The translations under genes were made by a program, and so were the position numbers. Below the pieces are notes generated by a model. It did no database searches and was not told the DNA's origin. It saw nothing but the letters and a program-made list of their open reading frames with translations. A stretch of 64,000 bases of DNA. Origin: Microbacterium sp. SMR1 (GTDB taxonomy: Bacteria > Actinomycetota > Actinomycetes > Actinomycetales > Microbacteriaceae). This document shows positions 24,326-30,829 of the stretch, in pieces. The stretch is taken from contig NZ_QMBN01000001.1 of NCBI RefSeq assembly GCF_003289625.1, forward strand, positions 558,001 to 622,000, given 5' to 3'. How positions within the stretch are numbered: position 1 is the stretch's first letter; every line of letters begins with the position of its first letter.

Positions 24326-25444
24326 TCAGTCGCCGGTAGAGCTCCGTCGCGCTCGGCGCCGGCGCGTCGACGAGACGACGAGCCAGATCAGCGCGGCGGT
24401 GAGACCGATCACGACGAGCCAGGGCAGCAGGAACCCGAGCGCCACGACGATCCCGTTGAACGTGGCGATGAGCCCGTTCCACCCCGTCGCCAGTCCGTCG
24501 CCGAAGCCTGCCGGATCGGCGTCCACCTTCTCGGCCGGCGCCTGCAGGTGCACCGTGAGCGACGACAGGGTGACCTGCGACTCGAGCGCGGTGAGCTGCT
24601 GCTGCAGCGAGTCGAGCTCGGCCTGCCGGTCGGCGAGAGCGGACTCCGCTGCGATGAGGTCGGCGACCGACCCGGCTTCGCCCATGAGCTCCGTCAGCCG
24701 TTCGACCGATGCCTGCCCGGCGGCCACCCGGGCGCGGAGGTCGGTCGTCTGCGTTGTCACGTCGTCGCGTGAGACCTGCGAGCTCTCGACTTCGCCGACG
24801 TCCGCGAGCGCAGCGATGGCCTCCTCGAGGCTCGCTGCGGGAACCCGGACGGACACCCAGGCCGAGCCGGCGGAGGCAGGCCAGACCGCGCGGTCATCCG
24901 CGTACGGCAGCGCGCCCGCCGCCGTGCCCCCGAGACTCATCGACTCGACATAGCCGCCCGCGGCGACGGCGGCCTCGGCGATCGATTCCGCCGCGTCACG
25001 GGGATCGTCGGCGATCACTGTGGCGGACGCTGTGGCGATGACGTCGCGCCCGGCGGGGGAGTCAGACACCGCGCCGGAGGCCGACCCCTCTTCGGTCGAC
25101 CCGTCCAACGCGAACGGCTCGGGCTGCGCCGCCGAGTCGCCGGCGTCTCGCGACACTTCGCCGTTCTCCATCGTGCCGAAGAACCCCTCCGGGGCGGTGG
25201 CGGGCGCGACGGAGGAGGCCCCGCCGCTGCTGCTCGTCAGCTGCGGCGCGATGGCCGCGGCCACGACGATCACGGCTGCCGCGGCGCCGGACGCGCCCCA
25301 CCAGGCCCGCCGCCGTCGCGTCCGCTGCGCGGCGGCCCGGTCAGCCGAGGCGCGGTGTTCGGCGCGGTCGCGCGCGATGTCCGCGAACAAAGCCTCTTCG
25401 ATCGCATCGATACGGCTGTCATCCAGGGTGGGTAGATCGTTCAT
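24326..25444 (-). CDS. DUF4349 membrane protein, probable partner of the sigma factor
   Basis: A 372-residue protein with three parts. Residues 1-46 are a charged cytoplasmic segment. TM1 is at about 48-70. The long extracytoplasmic DUF4349 domain has a heptad-rich coiled coil at about 205-290 (AESALADRQAELDSLQQQLTALE). TM2 is near 325-358, followed by a basic tail. DUF4349 proteins are membrane proteins of unknown function. Here the gene overlaps the sigma gene by ATGA, and the first residues resemble the sigma-binding part of anti-sigma factors without zinc ligands. An anti-sigma or envelope-sensor role is therefore inferred. Confidence 0.8.
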   Translation of the reverse strand: MNDLPTLDDSRIDAIEEALFADIARDRAEHRASADRAAAQRTRRRRAWWGASGAAAAVIVVAAAIAPQLTSSSGGASSVAPATAPEGFFGTMENGEVSRDAGDSAAQPEPFALDGSTEEGSASGAVSDSPAGRDVIATASATVIADDPRDAAESIAEAAVAAGGYVESMSLGGTAAGALPYADDRAVWPASAGSAWVSVRVPAASLEEAIAALADVGEVESSQVSRDDVTTQTTDLRARVAAGQASVERLTELMGEAGSVADLIAAESALADRQAELDSLQQQLTALESQVTLSSLTVHLQAPAEKVDADPAGFGDGLATGWNGLIATFNGIVVALGFLLPWLVVIGLTAALIWLVVSSTRRRRARRSSTGD

Positions 25445-26001
25445 GACTGCTCCGGTTCAACGCTCGAGCGGACGAATGTGCGGATGCGGGAGAGCCGGTT
25501 CCGGACCGTCCCGTGGCTGACGCCGAGCTGGTCGGCGGCTGCTTGATACGCGAACCCTTCGGCGGCGCAGAGCCGGAAGATGTCCTGGTCGAGGGGGCTC
25601 AGCGAGCCGACGGCGGCGAGGATGCGTTCGACGAGATCGCTCTGCACCACCTGCCGCTCGACGTCCACCGTGTCGGCGACCTCGGCGGCGTCCTCATCCG
25701 TCGTGTGGCGTCGTTCCCGTTGCCGTCGGCGGATGCGGTTCGCGCTCTGGAACCGGCAGATGGTGACGAGCCACGGCAGCAGCGACTCGCCCGCCAGCTC
25801 GAAGTCGGAGAGTTTGCGCCAGGCCACCAGGAACGTCTCCTGCGTGACGTCCTCGGCTTCGAGGCGATCGCCCAGCAGGCCATGCGCGAGCCAGTACACC
25901 GGCCGCACGTAGGCGCGATAGAGCGTACGGAAGGCGTGCTCACTTCCGGATGCCGCCGCTTCGACGAGCTCGGCATCACCGCGTGTGATCGTGTCGACCA
26001 T
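25441..26001 (-). CDS. ECF-type RNA polymerase sigma factor
   Basis: A 186-residue group IV sigma factor. Region 2 is at about residues 20-88 (LLGDRLEAEDVTQETFLVAWRK, then WLVTICRFQSANRIRRR), a short acidic linker follows, and region 4 is at about 125-178 with the HTH YQAAADQLGVSHGTVRNRLSRIR. No C-terminal extension is present. It is co-translated with the DUF4349 membrane protein, which may hold it inactive. The target promoters are not evident. Confidence 0.9.
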   Translation of the reverse strand: MVDTITRGDAELVEAAASGSEHAFRTLYRAYVRPVYWLAHGLLGDRLEAEDVTQETFLVAWRKLSDFELAGESLLPWLVTICRFQSANRIRRRQRERRHTTDEDAAEVADTVDVERQVVQSDLVERILAAVGSLSPLDQDIFRLCAAEGFAYQAAADQLGVSHGTVRNRLSRIRTFVRSSVEPEQS

Positions 26002-26117
26002 GCGTCTGAGTTCCTTCCCTCATCCCATCAGTGTCGCGTCGTCGCGAACCGTCTCACACCCGGGCCGCGGGGGAGCCGGGGTGTAGTCTCGGGAGGCTTC
26101 CTCCCCGAAAGGCTCGC

Positions 26118-27191
26118 ATGGACCTCCCCGTGCCGTTCCAGATCGTCGCGCTCGTCGTCCTGGTGCTCGTGCTCGTCGCCGATCTGCTCATCATCGTCAA
26201 GCGGCCCCACATCCCGTCGCCGAAGGAGTCGACGCTGTGGGTGCTGTTCTACGTGTCCCTGGCGCTGGTGTTCGCCGGCATCCTCTGGGCCGTCGCAGAC
26301 GTCGAGCACGCCGGGCAGTTCGTCGCCGGATGGCTGACCGAATACAGCCTCTCCATCGACAACCTCTTCGTGTTCGTCCTGATCATGAGCCAGTTCTCGG
26401 TTCCGCGCCGGTATCAGCAGAAGGTGCTGATGGTGGGCATCATCATCGCGCTGGTGCTTCGAGGTCTCTTCATCCTCGCGGGGGCGGCAATCATCGAGCA
26501 GTTCAGCTGGGTGTTCTACATCTTCGGTGCCTTCCTCATCTACACGGCGATCAAGCAAGCGCTGCCCGAGGGCGACCACGACGATGACGTGAAGAAGGAG
26601 AACTTCCTCGTGCGCATCATCCGTCGCACGGTGGACATCTCCGACGAGTACGACGGCCCCAAGGTCCGGACCGTCGTCAACGGCAAGCGGATGTTCACCC
26701 CGATGATCATCGTCTTCGTGGCGATCGGCGTCACCGATCTGCTGTTCGCCCTCGACTCGATCCCGGCCATCTTCGGCATCACGCAGGACCCGTTCCTGGT
26801 TTTCACCGCGAACATCTTCGCGCTGATGGGTCTGCGCCAGCTCTACTTCCTGCTGGGCGATCTGCTCGACCGGCTCAAGTACCTGCACTACGGGATCGCG
26901 TTCATCCTCGCGTTCATCGGCGTGAAGCTGATCCTTCACGCGATGCACGAGAACGAGCTCGCGTTCATCAACGGCGGCGACGGGATCGCCTGGGCGCCCG
27001 AGATCTCGACATGGGTGTCGCTCGGCGTCATCATCGGCGCCATGCTCGTCGCGACCGTAGCCAGCCTGATCGCCGCGCGGCACGACCGCGACGCGGCCGG
27101 CCCGACCCAGGCTGCGGCCGCCGTCGCCGACGAGCAGGGCACGCCCCCCACGGTCGAGCAGCCGCACCCGCGCGACGACGAGCGCTCATGA
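26118..27191 (+). CDS. TerC family integral membrane protein
   Basis: A 357-residue TerC/Alx-type protein with about 9 hydrophobic segments. Conserved acidic membrane positions are visible in EYSLSIDNLFVFVLIM (near residue 77) and in TDLLFALDSIPAIFGIT (near 215). TerC proteins are linked to tellurium resistance and, for Alx/MeeF-like members, to manganese export and metalation of secreted enzymes. A hairpin (GGGAGG-CTT-CCTCCC, 26091-26105) lies in the leader downstream of a TAGTCT -10 hexamer. I see no yybP-ykoY-type manganese riboswitch in the 116-nt leader. Tellurite genes are absent. Confidence 0.88.
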   Translation: MDLPVPFQIVALVVLVLVLVADLLIIVKRPHIPSPKESTLWVLFYVSLALVFAGILWAVADVEHAGQFVAGWLTEYSLSIDNLFVFVLIMSQFSVPRRYQQKVLMVGIIIALVLRGLFILAGAAIIEQFSWVFYIFGAFLIYTAIKQALPEGDHDDDVKKENFLVRIIRRTVDISDEYDGPKVRTVVNGKRMFTPMIIVFVAIGVTDLLFALDSIPAIFGITQDPFLVFTANIFALMGLRQLYFLLGDLLDRLKYLHYGIAFILAFIGVKLILHAMHENELAFINGGDGIAWAPEISTWVSLGVIIGAMLVATVASLIAARHDRDAAGPTQAAAAVADEQGTPPTVEQPHPRDDERS

Positions 27192-27217
27192 CCGGACGCC
27201 GCCGCGGCGCCCGGTGG

Positions 27218-27223
27218 TATTCT
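27218..27223 (+). promoter_or_regulatory. -10 hexamer of the leuCD leader transcript
   Basis: TATTCT ends 6 nt before the ATG of the leader peptide at 27230, so the transcript would begin at that codon (leaderless). No clear -35 is seen. Confidence 0.55.
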
Positions 27224-27229
27224 GACCGC

Positions 27230-27280
27230 ATGCGGATCGCTCGCCTTCTCCTTAGCGGCCGCGGCGAGGTCTCGTTCTGA
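27230..27280 (+). CDS. Leader peptide for leucine attenuation of leuCD
   Basis: A 16-codon frame reading MRIARLLLSGRGEVSF, with three consecutive leucine codons (CTT CTC CTT, 27245-27253). It lies 63 nt upstream of leuC and overlaps a strong hairpin. CTT is rare in this GC-rich window, which would sharpen sensing of charged tRNA-Leu. Branched-chain attenuators with short leader peptides are known in Actinobacteria; this assignment is an inference from codon content, position and hairpin. The peptide probably has no function beyond being translated. Confidence 0.65.
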   Translation: MRIARLLLSGRGEVSF

Positions 27281-27297
27281 GCCCCTCCTCGCCGCGG
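27259..27297 (+). promoter_or_regulatory. Attenuator hairpin before leuC
   Basis: CCGCGGCGAGG and CCTCGCCGCGG form an 11-bp perfect stem. Its left arm is inside the last codons of the leader peptide, just after the leucine run. Ribosome position on the leader would decide whether it forms. No U run follows, so it may act by termination with factors or by limiting access to the leuC SD (AAGGAG near 27328). Confidence 0.6.
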
Positions 27298-27342
27298 AGT
27301 CCGTCGTGGGCTTGATCCCGGTTCGCAAGGAGAACGAAACCC

Positions 27343-28791
27343 ATGAGCATTCCCACCCCTCCCGAGCGCCCGCGCACCCTCGCCGAAAAGGTCTGGGACG
27401 ACCACCTCGTCGTCAAGGGTGAAGACGGTCAGCCCGACCTGATCTACATCGACCTGCACCTCGTGCACGAGGTCACGAGCCCGCAGGCCTTCGACGGTCT
27501 GCGTGCCGAGGGGCGTCCGCTGCGGCGCCTCGACCTGACGATCGCGACCGAGGACCACAACACCCCGACGCTCGACATCGACAAGCCGATCGCCGACCTC
27601 ACCAGCCGAACGCAGATCGAGACCCTTCGGCGCAACGCAGAGGAGTTCGGCGTCCGCCTCCACTCGCTCGGCGACGCGGAGCAGGGCATCGTCCATGTCG
27701 TCGGACCCCAGCTCGGCCTCACGATGCCGGGCATCACGGTCGTGTGCGGCGACAGCCACACCTCGACGCACGGCGCGTTCGGCGCGATGGCGTTCGGCAT
27801 CGGCACGAGCGAGGTCGAGCACGTCATGGCGACGCAGACCCTTCCGCTGAAGCCGTTCAAGACGATGGCGATCACCGTCGAGGGCGAGCTGAAGGAAGGC
27901 GTGACGGCGAAGGACATCATCCTCGCCGTGATCGCGAAGATCGGCACCAACGGCGGCCAGGGCTACGTGCTCGAGTACCGCGGCAGCGCGATCCGCGCCC
28001 TCTCCATGGAGGGGCGCATGACCATGTGCAACATGTCAATCGAGGCGGGTGCCCGCGCAGGCATGGTGGCCCCCGATGAGATCACCTTCGAATACGTGAA
28101 GGGCCGCCCGCACGCGCCGACCGGGCAGGACTGGGATGACGCCGTCGCCTACTGGCGCACGCTCCCCAGCGACGAGGGCGCCGTCTACGACGCCGAGATC
28201 TTCATCGATGCGGCCGAGCTCGAGCCGTTCGTCACGTGGGGAACCAACCCCGGCCAGGGCGTCTCGCTCAGTGCGACGGTTCCCTCGCCCGACGACTTCA
28301 GCGACCCGAACGAGAAGGCGGCGGCTGAACGCGCGCTCGATTACATGGACCTGCAGCCGGGTACTCCGCTCAAGGAGATCCCGGTCGACGCCGTCTTCAT
28401 GGGTTCGTGCACCAACAGCCGCATCGAAGACCTGCGCGCGTTCGCGTCGATCATCGAGGGGCGCACGAAGGCTGACGGAGTTCGCGTGATGGTCGTTCCG
28501 GGCTCCGCCCGCGTTCGGCTCGAGGCTGAGGCCGAGGGGCTCGACCGGGTCTTCACCGAGTTCGGCGCCGAGTGGCGCTTCGCCGGCTGCTCGATGTGCC
28601 TGGGCATGAATCCCGACCAGCTCGCTCCGGGCGAGCGCTGCGCGTCGACCAGCAACCGCAACTTCGAGGGACGCCAGGGCAAGGGCGGCCGTACGCACCT
28701 GGTGTCGCCGCTCGTGGCCGCCGCCACCGCTGTGCTCGGGCGCCTCGCATCGCCGAGCGATCTGCCCGCACGCGAGAAGGTCGAGGCCTGA
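27343..28791 (+). CDS. leuC: 3-isopropylmalate dehydratase large subunit
   Basis: A 482-residue aconitase-family protein. The [4Fe-4S] ligands are C356 (GSCTNSR), C416 and C419 ([11 protein letters not shown]). With LeuD it isomerises 2-isopropylmalate to 3-isopropylmalate in leucine synthesis. Its stop is followed after two bases by leuD. Control is probably by the leader peptide upstream. leuB and ilvE, which act next, are at 2.5-4.8 kb on the same strand but in a separate unit. Confidence 0.97.
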
Positions 28792-28793
28792 AC

Positions 28794-29390
28794 ATGGAGA
28801 AGTTCGAGACCCACACCGGTGTCGTCGCACCGCTCAAGCGCTCCGCCGTCGACACCGACCAGATCATCCCGGCCGTCTACCTGAAGCGCGTCACCAAGAC
28901 CGGCTTCGAGGACGCGCTCTTCGCCAACTGGCGTCAGGACCCCGAGTTCGTGCTGAACCAGCCCGCTTTCGCGGGGGCGTCGATCCTCGTCGCCGGGCCC
29001 GACTTCGGTACCGGATCGAGCCGTGAGCATGCGGTGTGGGCGCTGCGCGACTTCGGATTCCGCGTCGTGCTGGCACCCAAGTTCGCCGACATCTTCCGCG
29101 GCAACGCGGGCAAGCAGGGCCTCCTCGCCGGTGTCATCTCGGAGTCGGATCGCGAGGCGATCTGGGCTGCCGTGGATGCGCAGCCGGGTGTGCGGATGAC
29201 GGTCGATCTCGAGGCACGCGTCGCTGCTCTCGGCGACCTCCGAGTCCCGTTCGAGATCGACGATTACACTCGTTGGAGGCTCCTCGAAGGACTCGACGAC
29301 ATCGGGCTCACGCTGCGCAATGAAGAGGCGATCGCGCAGTTCGAGGCGCGCCGTGAGGCGTGGCGACCCCGGACACTCCCCGTCGCGTAG
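28794..29390 (+). CDS. leuD: 3-isopropylmalate dehydratase small subunit
   Basis: A 198-residue swivel-domain subunit. Motifs are [13 protein letters not shown] near residue 20 and the substrate loop [13 protein letters not shown] at 68-80. It pairs with LeuC. The start is the ATG two bases after the leuC stop. It is followed after 71 nt by murA, which may share the transcript or use its own promoter. Confidence 0.97.
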
Positions 29391-29461
29391 CCCCGGATCA
29401 CGCCCTGAACCGTGGGGCGAAGATCCGCCCCGCCCTCGATCACCAAGTGAGGAAGTCCTGC

Positions 29462-30829
29462 ATGAGCACTCCGCCGAGTGAGCCGTCCGCATCGGAGAAC
29501 GGCAACCGTCGCGAAGACGGCGAGATCCTCGAGATCCGGGGCGGGCGGCCCCTCGTCGGACGTGTCGACGTCAAGGGAGCGAAGAACTTCGCGACGAAGG
29601 CCATGGTCGCCTCGCTGCTCGGCGAGACCGAGAGCGTCCTGCGCGACGTTCCTGACATCAGCGATGTGGCCGTGGTCCGGTCCCTTCTCGAGGTCCACGG
29701 CGTGACGGTCGCCGACGACGGCGAGGGCACGTACCGGCTCGACCCGAGCGGGGCCGAATCGGCCGGCTTCGAGGAGATCGACGCGCACGCCGGTGCCTCG
29801 CGCATCCCGATCCTCTTCTGCGGGCCGCTCCTGCACCTGCTCGGCCAGGCGTTCATCCCCGACCTCGGCGGATGCCGAATCGGGGACCGCCCCATCGACT
29901 TCCATCTCGACGCGCTCCGCAAGTTCGGCGCGATCGTCGACAAGCAGCCCAACGGCATCCGTCTCTCGGCGCCCGAGGGACTTCACGGTGCGGACATCGA
30001 GCTGCCCTACCCGAGCGTCGGCGCCACCGAGCAGGTGCTGCTGACTGCGGTGCGAGCCAAGGGCACGACGGAGCTGCGCAACGCCGCCATCGAACCCGAG
30101 ATCATGGACCTGATCGCCGTGCTGCAGAAGATGGGCGCGATCATCTCCTACGAGCCGAATCGCGTGATCTTCATCGAGGGCGTCGACAAGCTCCGCGGGT
30201 ACGACCACCGGTCGATCTTCGATCGCAACGAAGCAGCCTCATGGGCGTGCGCCGCCCTGGCGACCGACGGCGACATCTTCGTCGGCGGTGCGAAGCAGCA
30301 GGAGATGCTCACCTTCCTCAACGTCTTCCGCAAGGCCGGAGGCGACTTCGACATCCAGGAGGACGGCATCCGCTTCCGTCGCGACGGCGCGCTGCGTCCC
30401 GTCTCGGTCGAGACCGATGTCCACCCCGGATTCATGACCGACTGGCAGCAGCCGCTCATTGTCGCCCTGACGCAAGCCGAAGGCGTCTCGACCGTGCATG
30501 AGACGGTCTACGAGAACCGTCTCGGCTTCACTCAGGCGCTGAACAAGATGGGCGCGCAGATCGTGGTGCACCCCGAGGGCATCGCGAGCCCGGACCGTCG
30601 CGTCCCGCGTCGCGCCCTCGAGCAGGCCGCGGTCATCACGGGCCCGACGCCGCTGCACGGTGCGGATGTCGTCGTGCCCGACCTGCGCGGCGGATACAGC
30701 TACGTCATCGCGGCTCTCGCGGCCGAGGGAACGTCGGTCGTCCGCAACGTCGGGATCATCCGCCGGGGCTACGAGAAGTTCTTCGACAAGCTCGAGGCGC
30801 TCGGCGCCGACTTCGACATCATCGGCTGA
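29462..30829 (+). CDS. murA: UDP-N-acetylglucosamine 1-carboxyvinyltransferase
   Basis: A 455-residue EPSP-synthase-fold enzyme that transfers enolpyruvate to UDP-GlcNAc, the first committed step of peptidoglycan synthesis. The catalytic loop reads GGCRIGDRPIDFH with C138; mycobacterial MurA has aspartate there and is fosfomycin-insensitive, so this enzyme keeps the fosfomycin target residue. It has an N-terminal extension of about 20 polar residues. SD: GAGGAAG upstream of the ATG. It heads a run of envelope genes: murA-plsC-gpsA-ddl. Confidence 0.95.
   Translation: MSTPPSEPSASENGNRREDGEILEIRGGRPLVGRVDVKGAKNFATKAMVASLLGETESVLRDVPDISDVAVVRSLLEVHGVTVADDGEGTYRLDPSGAESAGFEEIDAHAGASRIPILFCGPLLHLLGQAFIPDLGGCRIGDRPIDFHLDALRKFGAIVDKQPNGIRLSAPEGLHGADIELPYPSVGATEQVLLTAVRAKGTTELRNAAIEPEIMDLIAVLQKMGAIISYEPNRVIFIEGVDKLRGYDHRSIFDRNEAASWACAALATDGDIFVGGAKQQEMLTFLNVFRKAGGDFDIQEDGIRFRRDGALRPVSVETDVHPGFMTDWQQPLIVALTQAEGVSTVHETVYENRLGFTQALNKMGAQIVVHPEGIASPDRRVPRRALEQAAVITGPTPLHGADVVVPDLRGGYSYVIAALAAEGTSVVRNVGIIRRGYEKFFDKLEALGADFDIIG

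Follow-up and report, generated by a model that had tools for sequence, protein, structure and literature searches.

A putative LEU-type leader element upstream of leuCD in Microbacterium sp. SMR1 and its distribution among Microbacteriaceae

In Microbacterium sp. SMR1, leuC and leuD are preceded by a short open reading frame with a run of leucine codons and by a hairpin, raising the question of whether, and at which level, this arrangement controls the two genes. A preliminary description of the locus had read it as a leaderless leader peptide behind a TATTCT box, with 16 codons including CTT CTC CTT, two of them rare, and with an 11-bp hairpin beginning inside its last codons; ribosome-mediated attenuation, acting on translation rather than through a terminator, had been proposed. 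In Actinobacteria, an element named LEU has been described upstream of leuA (Seliverstov et al. 2005, PMC1262725), composed of a Leu-rich upstream open reading frame (uORF), a pseudoknot and a base stem between the Leu codons and the Shine-Dalgarno sequence (SD) of the gene; its mode of action was left open in that naming paper, and our literature search found no later test of how LEU elements work.

Parts of the element upstream of leuCD

The TATTCT box, the 16-codon frame with CTT CTC CTT and the 11-bp hairpin starting inside its codons were all found in place in the window, i.e., the whole stretch of 64 kb that was analysed. Two features are absent from the preliminary description, namely the complementarity between the Leu codons and the leuC SD and the pseudoknot joining the hairpin loop to a downstream strand. 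The parts are as follows:

27218..27223, + strand: -10 box TATTCT (TANNNT type), read directly, its spacing common to relatives
27230..27280, + strand: uORF encoding the leader peptide MRIARLLLSGRGEVSF and a stop, predicted to be leaderless, its phase to the hairpin kept in 102 of 102 relatives
27245..27253, + strand: Leu run CTT CTC CTT, subject of the fold, codon and pairing tests
27246-27253, + strand: anti-SD strand of the base stem, UUCUCCUU, within the Leu run (window fold)
27259..27269, + strand: 5' arm of the hairpin, stem 1 of the pseudoknot (fold, covariation)
27280..27284, + strand: 5' strand of stem 2 in the pseudoknot, loop sequence AGCCC, read directly in the window and backed by covariation in 144 elements
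27287..27297, + strand: 3' arm of the hairpin, stem 1 of the pseudoknot (fold, covariation)
27308..27312, + strand: 3' strand of stem 2 in the pseudoknot, GGGCU, on the same evidence as its 5' strand
27327..27334, + strand: leuC SD, AAGGAGAA, predicted by folding to base-pair with the Leu run
27343..28791, + strand: leuC, 3-isopropylmalate dehydratase large subunit
28794..29390, + strand: leuD, 3-isopropylmalate dehydratase small subunit

The box is followed by six bases and then by the ATG of the uORF at 27230, where transcription is predicted to start; upstream of the element lies a gene of the TerC/Alx family. The uORF runs over 16 codons, from Met to Phe, before its stop; the hairpin begins inside codon 10, lacks a U-run, and carries in its loop the strand AGCCC, which shares its first base with the end of the stop codon. 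The anti-SD strand is complementary to the leuC SD at every base, and the two are paired in the predicted fold of the window. The combination of TANNNT, six or seven nucleotides, ATG or GTG and a frame of 9-30 codons (stop included) in which two or more Leu codons stand in a row has a single occurrence on the two strands of the window, and it is this one; order-1 random sequence yields a mean of 0.083 such combinations per 64-kb strand, and 0.000 when the run is of at least three (60 samples).

Between 27100 and 27420, neither an intrinsic terminator-like site nor an E. coli-type -35/-10 pair was found; a search of 25000-30000 with Rfam 15 (E up to 5) gave six matches, none of which overlaps the element and none of which is a Leu_leader, T-box or riboswitch. 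The missing terminator argues for control of translation and not of termination, in keeping with what had been proposed for the locus.

Conservation of frame, codons and pairing

The set of distinct elements contains 106 sequences, 78 from leuC and 28 from leuA, reduced from 108 by dropping two identical ones; the window's own element, met again as L083, was left out as well. In a listing that itself sought such a promoter with a Leu run (present in all 108 sequences), the distance from the -10 hexamer to the uORF start is 6 nt in 81 of the 106 elements, 7 nt in 22, 5 nt in two and 8 nt in one; that 103 of the 106 have a spacing of 6 or 7 nt supports a leaderless leader peptide. The start codon is ATG in 52 and GTG in 54. 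Conservation of the Leu codons, on which the preliminary description had staked its reading, is complete, a run of two to five being present in the uORF of all 106. When the Leu run and the frame are disregarded, an ATG or GTG 6-7 nt after TANNNT occurs exactly once in 102 of the 105 sequences examined and is missing from three, and all 102 of these leaderless-type starts share a single phase to the hairpin; the end of the run lies 5 nt from the hairpin in 94 sequences and 2 nt in 11 (the second-leuA element L085, in which the anchor is missing, was left out of the distance and phase counts).

The 360 codons of the runs comprise 208 CTT, 108 CTC, 42 CTG and two TTG; the Leu codons of the leuC genes themselves (loci L003-L033) comprise 599 CTC, 424 CTG, 44 CTT, 27 TTG and three CTA. 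CTT is indeed rare in the window, as had been remarked (it makes up 10 of the 163 Leu codons in five ORFs nearby), but rarity is not the rule, since CTC, the commonest Leu codon of leuC, is also used in the run, and CTG, itself common, hardly ever occupies its last three positions. Going upstream from the last codon of the run, CTG accounts for 6/106, 1/106 and 6/100 cases (13/312 together) and then for 28/47 at the fourth position. This exclusion fits a pairing of the run with the SD; complementarity to a purine-rich SD would explain the codon pattern better than rarity does, the choice of one tRNA being possible as well.

The paired substitutions that the alignment was meant to reveal are present in the hairpin: 94.9% of the cells are paired, both-sided changes occur in 16 cells (0 of 500 shuffles), and one pair is exchanged between A-U and G-C, in 16 and seven sequences. 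The hairpin had been taken for an attenuator standing alone; it turns out to be stem 1 of a pseudoknot, within an element of known type. Stem 2 is formed by exchanged sequences, AGCCC:GGGCU in the window and CAGGC:GCCUG at leuC loci, with GACCGGC:GCCGGUC and AGACCAGC:GCUGGUCU (second leuA) and GUCAGCCA:UGGCUGAC (leuB type) as further variants. Over 144 elements, from which a match inside a coding sequence (L232) had been removed, the score of the proper partners was unreached in 20,000 permutations and the reversed control was flat; in some of these elements, chiefly leuA ones, the best helix differs from the pseudoknot stem that was expected, and many helices have only 4 bp. Within single classes, three elements without a perfect 7-bp stem being left out, the signal is much weaker (269 of 20,000 permutations as good for leuC alone, 1,559 of 20,000 for leuA alone), because many elements share one stem sequence.

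An alternative hairpin, AGUCC/GGGCU, is part of the minimum-energy fold of the window; it was rejected, covariation giving it no support (16,367 of 20,000 permutations did at least as well). Next to the hairpin on its 3' side (27298-27300 in the window) stand bases left unpaired in the pseudoknot model, A in 117, G in 122 and then T in 102 of 124 elements, the remaining 20 of the 144 having been excluded as their arm was cut differently; the A-G is unlike the LEU elements of PMC1262725, in which conserved unpaired bases were not reported.

As to the base stem, the duplex of Leu run and SD has in the 78 leuC elements a mean energy of -10.11 kcal/mol with the element's own SD and of -8.83 kcal/mol with permuted ones, none of 20,000 permutations being as good, and the same runs after random synonymous recoding average -7.99 kcal/mol. 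With one leuC element per genus plus the window (n=54), again none of 20,000 permutations was as good; here as for the pseudoknot, permutation counts are not probabilities, since related sequences share both strands. When SDs were swapped with the five most similar genera, the element's own was better in 208 of 266 (non-independent) pairs. Among the 28 leuA elements this comparison yields a weak signal (1,019 of 20,000 permutations equal or surpass the own pairs), and the real runs hardly surpass recoded ones (-10.20 vs -9.70, sd 0.36); gene starts were picked by a script on SD-likeness, and some of the leuA starts look wrong. A CG after the run goes together with CGAAG near the SD (11/28 vs 3/48 otherwise; Fisher p 0.0006, uncorrected); AG after the run with CUAAG gave a non-significant result (2/24 vs 0/52, p 0.097). 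The base stem seems to extend beyond the run in some elements.

Distribution and neighbouring signals

Among the 80 top-ranking leuC loci, chosen from a longer list, a pattern test found a uORF of this type near leuC in 22, and a covariance model added one from Herbiconiux (L011); all 23 belong to Microbacteriaceae by title or genus. The 57 loci without the element include nine from Microbacteriaceae (two each of Curtobacterium and Agrococcus, Frigoribacterium, Salinibacterium, Rhodoluna and two uncultured) and one unplaced actinomycete, the others being named as other families. The model (R2), built on 23 leaders, was run on the stretches upstream of leuC in one genome per genus for 80 genera of the family, Microbacterium being left out. 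The element was found in 53 of them, with scores of 47.9-84.6 bits, the best match in a locus lacking it reaching 17.6 bits; 25 of the 27 other genera have at least one match at another place in their genome (E 2.4e-10 or better). Altogether, at least one match at E <= 0.01 is present in 145 of 150 genomes of a family sample. At one leuC locus (L134, about 323-398), what appears to be a decayed element, scoring 10.9 bits, has kept the arm GCCGCGACGAG.

In the genome of Microbacterium sp. SMR1 itself, the model built on leuC leaders finds three elements, before leuC (83.3 bits), leuA (78.5 bits, L084) and a second leuA (40.1 bits, L085), which makes the kinship with leuA leaders explicit; both LeuA proteins score above the cut-off of the 2-isopropylmalate synthase model NF002991. 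A fourth and a fifth match (24.8 and 21.4 bits; L086, L087) fall inside long open reading frames and were regarded as noise. In 19 further genomes with 47 matches, 20 of which were fetched, nine weak third matches precede a leuA of the second type and the other eleven precede leuA.

Over the order, own family included, 116 of 149 genomes have a match. Outside the family, 20 fetched matches divide into 14 preceding leuA, one in a coding sequence and five representing a related element. The first long frame to follow the latter encodes 3-isopropylmalate dehydrogenase (LeuB), truncated where the stretch ends, in four of five cases, with none seen in the fifth. This related, likewise leaderless element (L221, L223, L225, L227 and L230, from two other families) has a uORF of mixed Leu, Ile and Val codons, for instance MARQLVILSSRGEFR and MQRQALIIRSRGGSL; in L221, L223 and L225 it is followed by an ORF of 26 amino acids (MSEEA...QALQES...).

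Other signals were observed near leu genes. In seven of ten loci (L085, at about 1430-1480; L200-L203, L205 and L206), the second-leuA element is immediately preceded by CTTGTCTGAGGAGTTG, with near matches in two more; the gene in opposite orientation at L085 looks, as we presume, GntR-type, and the second-leuA element may be under a second control by a protein. A palindrome like TTGGTATACCAA, possibly an operator, is found near the promoter in leuC loci lacking the element (L015, L019, L148, L185). In loci of other families (many of L034-L082), a stretch like GATATTGNCGTCTCA upstream of leuC is often held in common, beside the apparent start of a divergent gene, which would presumably encode an IclR/NdgR-type regulator of leuCD.

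Mode of action and related leaders

By its anatomy as read in the alignments, the element before leuCD is the LEU element known from leuA, and its place before leuCD is new. The likeness, judged by the text description in PMC1262725, covers a uORF in which Leu codons stand in a row (seen in the window and in all 106 distinct elements), a pseudoknot (by covariation over 144 elements, more weakly within gene classes), a stem between Leu codons and the SD of the next gene (in the window fold and the leuC swaps, weakly for leuA) and the missing terminator. The 2005 report placed LEU elements at leuA and at one transposase gene only; here they stand before leuCD and a second leuA, and a literature search, with most subscription journals outside its scope, found no description of such a leader before leuCD. 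We consider it probable that the element is a LEU-type translational attenuator controlling leuCD.

In the mechanism proposed, transcription would begin at the ATG of the uORF. With ample Leu-tRNA, the ribosome would pass the Leu codons and come off at the stop codon within the hairpin loop, whereupon the Leu codons would pair with the leuC SD and leuC would be off, the pseudoknot keeping the two strands close together; with Leu-tRNA in short supply, the ribosome would stall on the run and cover the anti-SD strand to about the start of the hairpin, so that the SD would be freed and leuCD translated. The same nucleotides would serve as sensor codons and as SD mask. In a folding model which ignores pseudoknots, places a Leu codon of the run in the A site and assumes a 28-nt footprint, ending about at the hairpin, the predicted SD openness is 0.23 in the free state, 0.48 with a ribosome on the run and 0.24 with a ribosome at the stop; openness with the ribosome on the run exceeds the free state in 70 of 78 elements and the stop state in 69 of 78, and the corresponding values for the window are 0.002, 0.41 and 0.03. 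These predictions are in favour of an opening of the SD by stalling, though they are no proof of it. The parts and their conservation, the conserved frame, the positional codon bias and the pairing with its covariation can be read directly from the sequences, to which the roles given to translation, stalling and leucine supply would be added by the mechanism.

PMC1262725 favoured a binding protein over attenuation for LEU elements, arguing from the phylogenetic pattern and from mutant data; the element would then be a protein site (candidate ML1624 and its orthologs) and the uORF incidental. The conserved unpaired A and G just 3' of the hairpin speak for such a site, which would, however, need neither the strict frame (102/102) nor the Leu identity of the run, and we deem it unlikely. 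The positional codon bias, the conservation of frame and the covariation of Leu run and SD in about 100 elements favour instead a ribosome stalling on the anti-SD strand. Transcription attenuation, intrinsic or Rho-dependent, would be in line with a leader peptide having regulatory codons beside a hairpin, as in trp- and ilv-type leaders; the intrinsic terminator with U-run of the classical trp/leu-type attenuator was not found in the leader, which tells against the intrinsic form, and this reading as a whole seems to us very unlikely. That frame and hairpin are a chance pairing without function might be argued from a fold energy that is unexceptional (z -1.54, with 18 of 200 shuffles equally good), and is refuted by an element that is conserved, with covarying pairs, in 53 of 80 genera and that recurs at three genes within one genome, leaving a practically negligible probability.

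The predominance of CTT and CTC in the runs (208 and 108 of 360 codons) would also be expected if the sensor were a single tRNA-Leu isoacceptor, presumably the one reading CUU and CUC, with CTG, which we take to be read by another tRNA, avoided for that reason and the SD complementarity a by-product of CTY runs. We hold this to be quite unlikely as a sufficient account: the leuC pairing covaries beyond chance and in part reaches past the Leu codons (11/28 vs 3/48); isoacceptor sensing could, however, act jointly with the SD mask. Stalling on the anti-SD strand also bears on the leuA-leader mutants of S. coelicolor (Craster 1999, as cited in PMC1262725), whose behaviour is reported there to misfit classical attenuation: paradoxical phenotypes of Leu-codon changes would be expected if the same bases do both, a changed codon breaking the mask as well as the sensor.

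Comparable leaders are known from other Actinobacteria. The leuA leader leuL1 of S. lividans is leaderless by mapped transcription starts, encodes the Leu-rich peptide MRFGLLLLSCRGEGL and a stop, and has no typical Rho-independent terminator in the accessible text of PMC8079986, which also gives a mean distance of 6.3 nt from -10 to start codon in this organism; it differs in its gene, leuA, and in its family, and pairing with the SD is not taken up in that text. The polycysteine uORFs before mycobacterial cysteine genes (Canestrari et al. 2020, via PMC9031893 and PMC13236596) are leaderless, repeat the codons of the product amino acid and let ribosome speed control the next genes; they differ in amino acid and genes, and the accessible parts of these two sources mention no pseudoknot. 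The ilvB leaders of Corynebacterium and Mycobacterium likewise have a short uORF with branched-chain codons, and that of C. diphtheriae is reported as leaderless in the accessible text of PMC13236596 and PMC5784534; in the same text, the ilvB1 leader of M. tuberculosis ends transcription at a terminator, of which there is none at the leuC element.

In its full extent, the proposal states that the Leu codons are at once sensor and SD mask, that the stalled ribosome is the switch without refolding between two folds, and that leuCD, leuA and the second leuA are all governed in the family by copies of a single element type, a relative with mixed Leu/Ile/Val codons standing ahead of leuB elsewhere in the order; in our judgement its chances are about even. 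If it holds, the roles of sensor and mask would be separable by simple codon swaps, and what was known as the leader of a single gene would become a small leucine regulon of leuCD, leuA and the second leuA.
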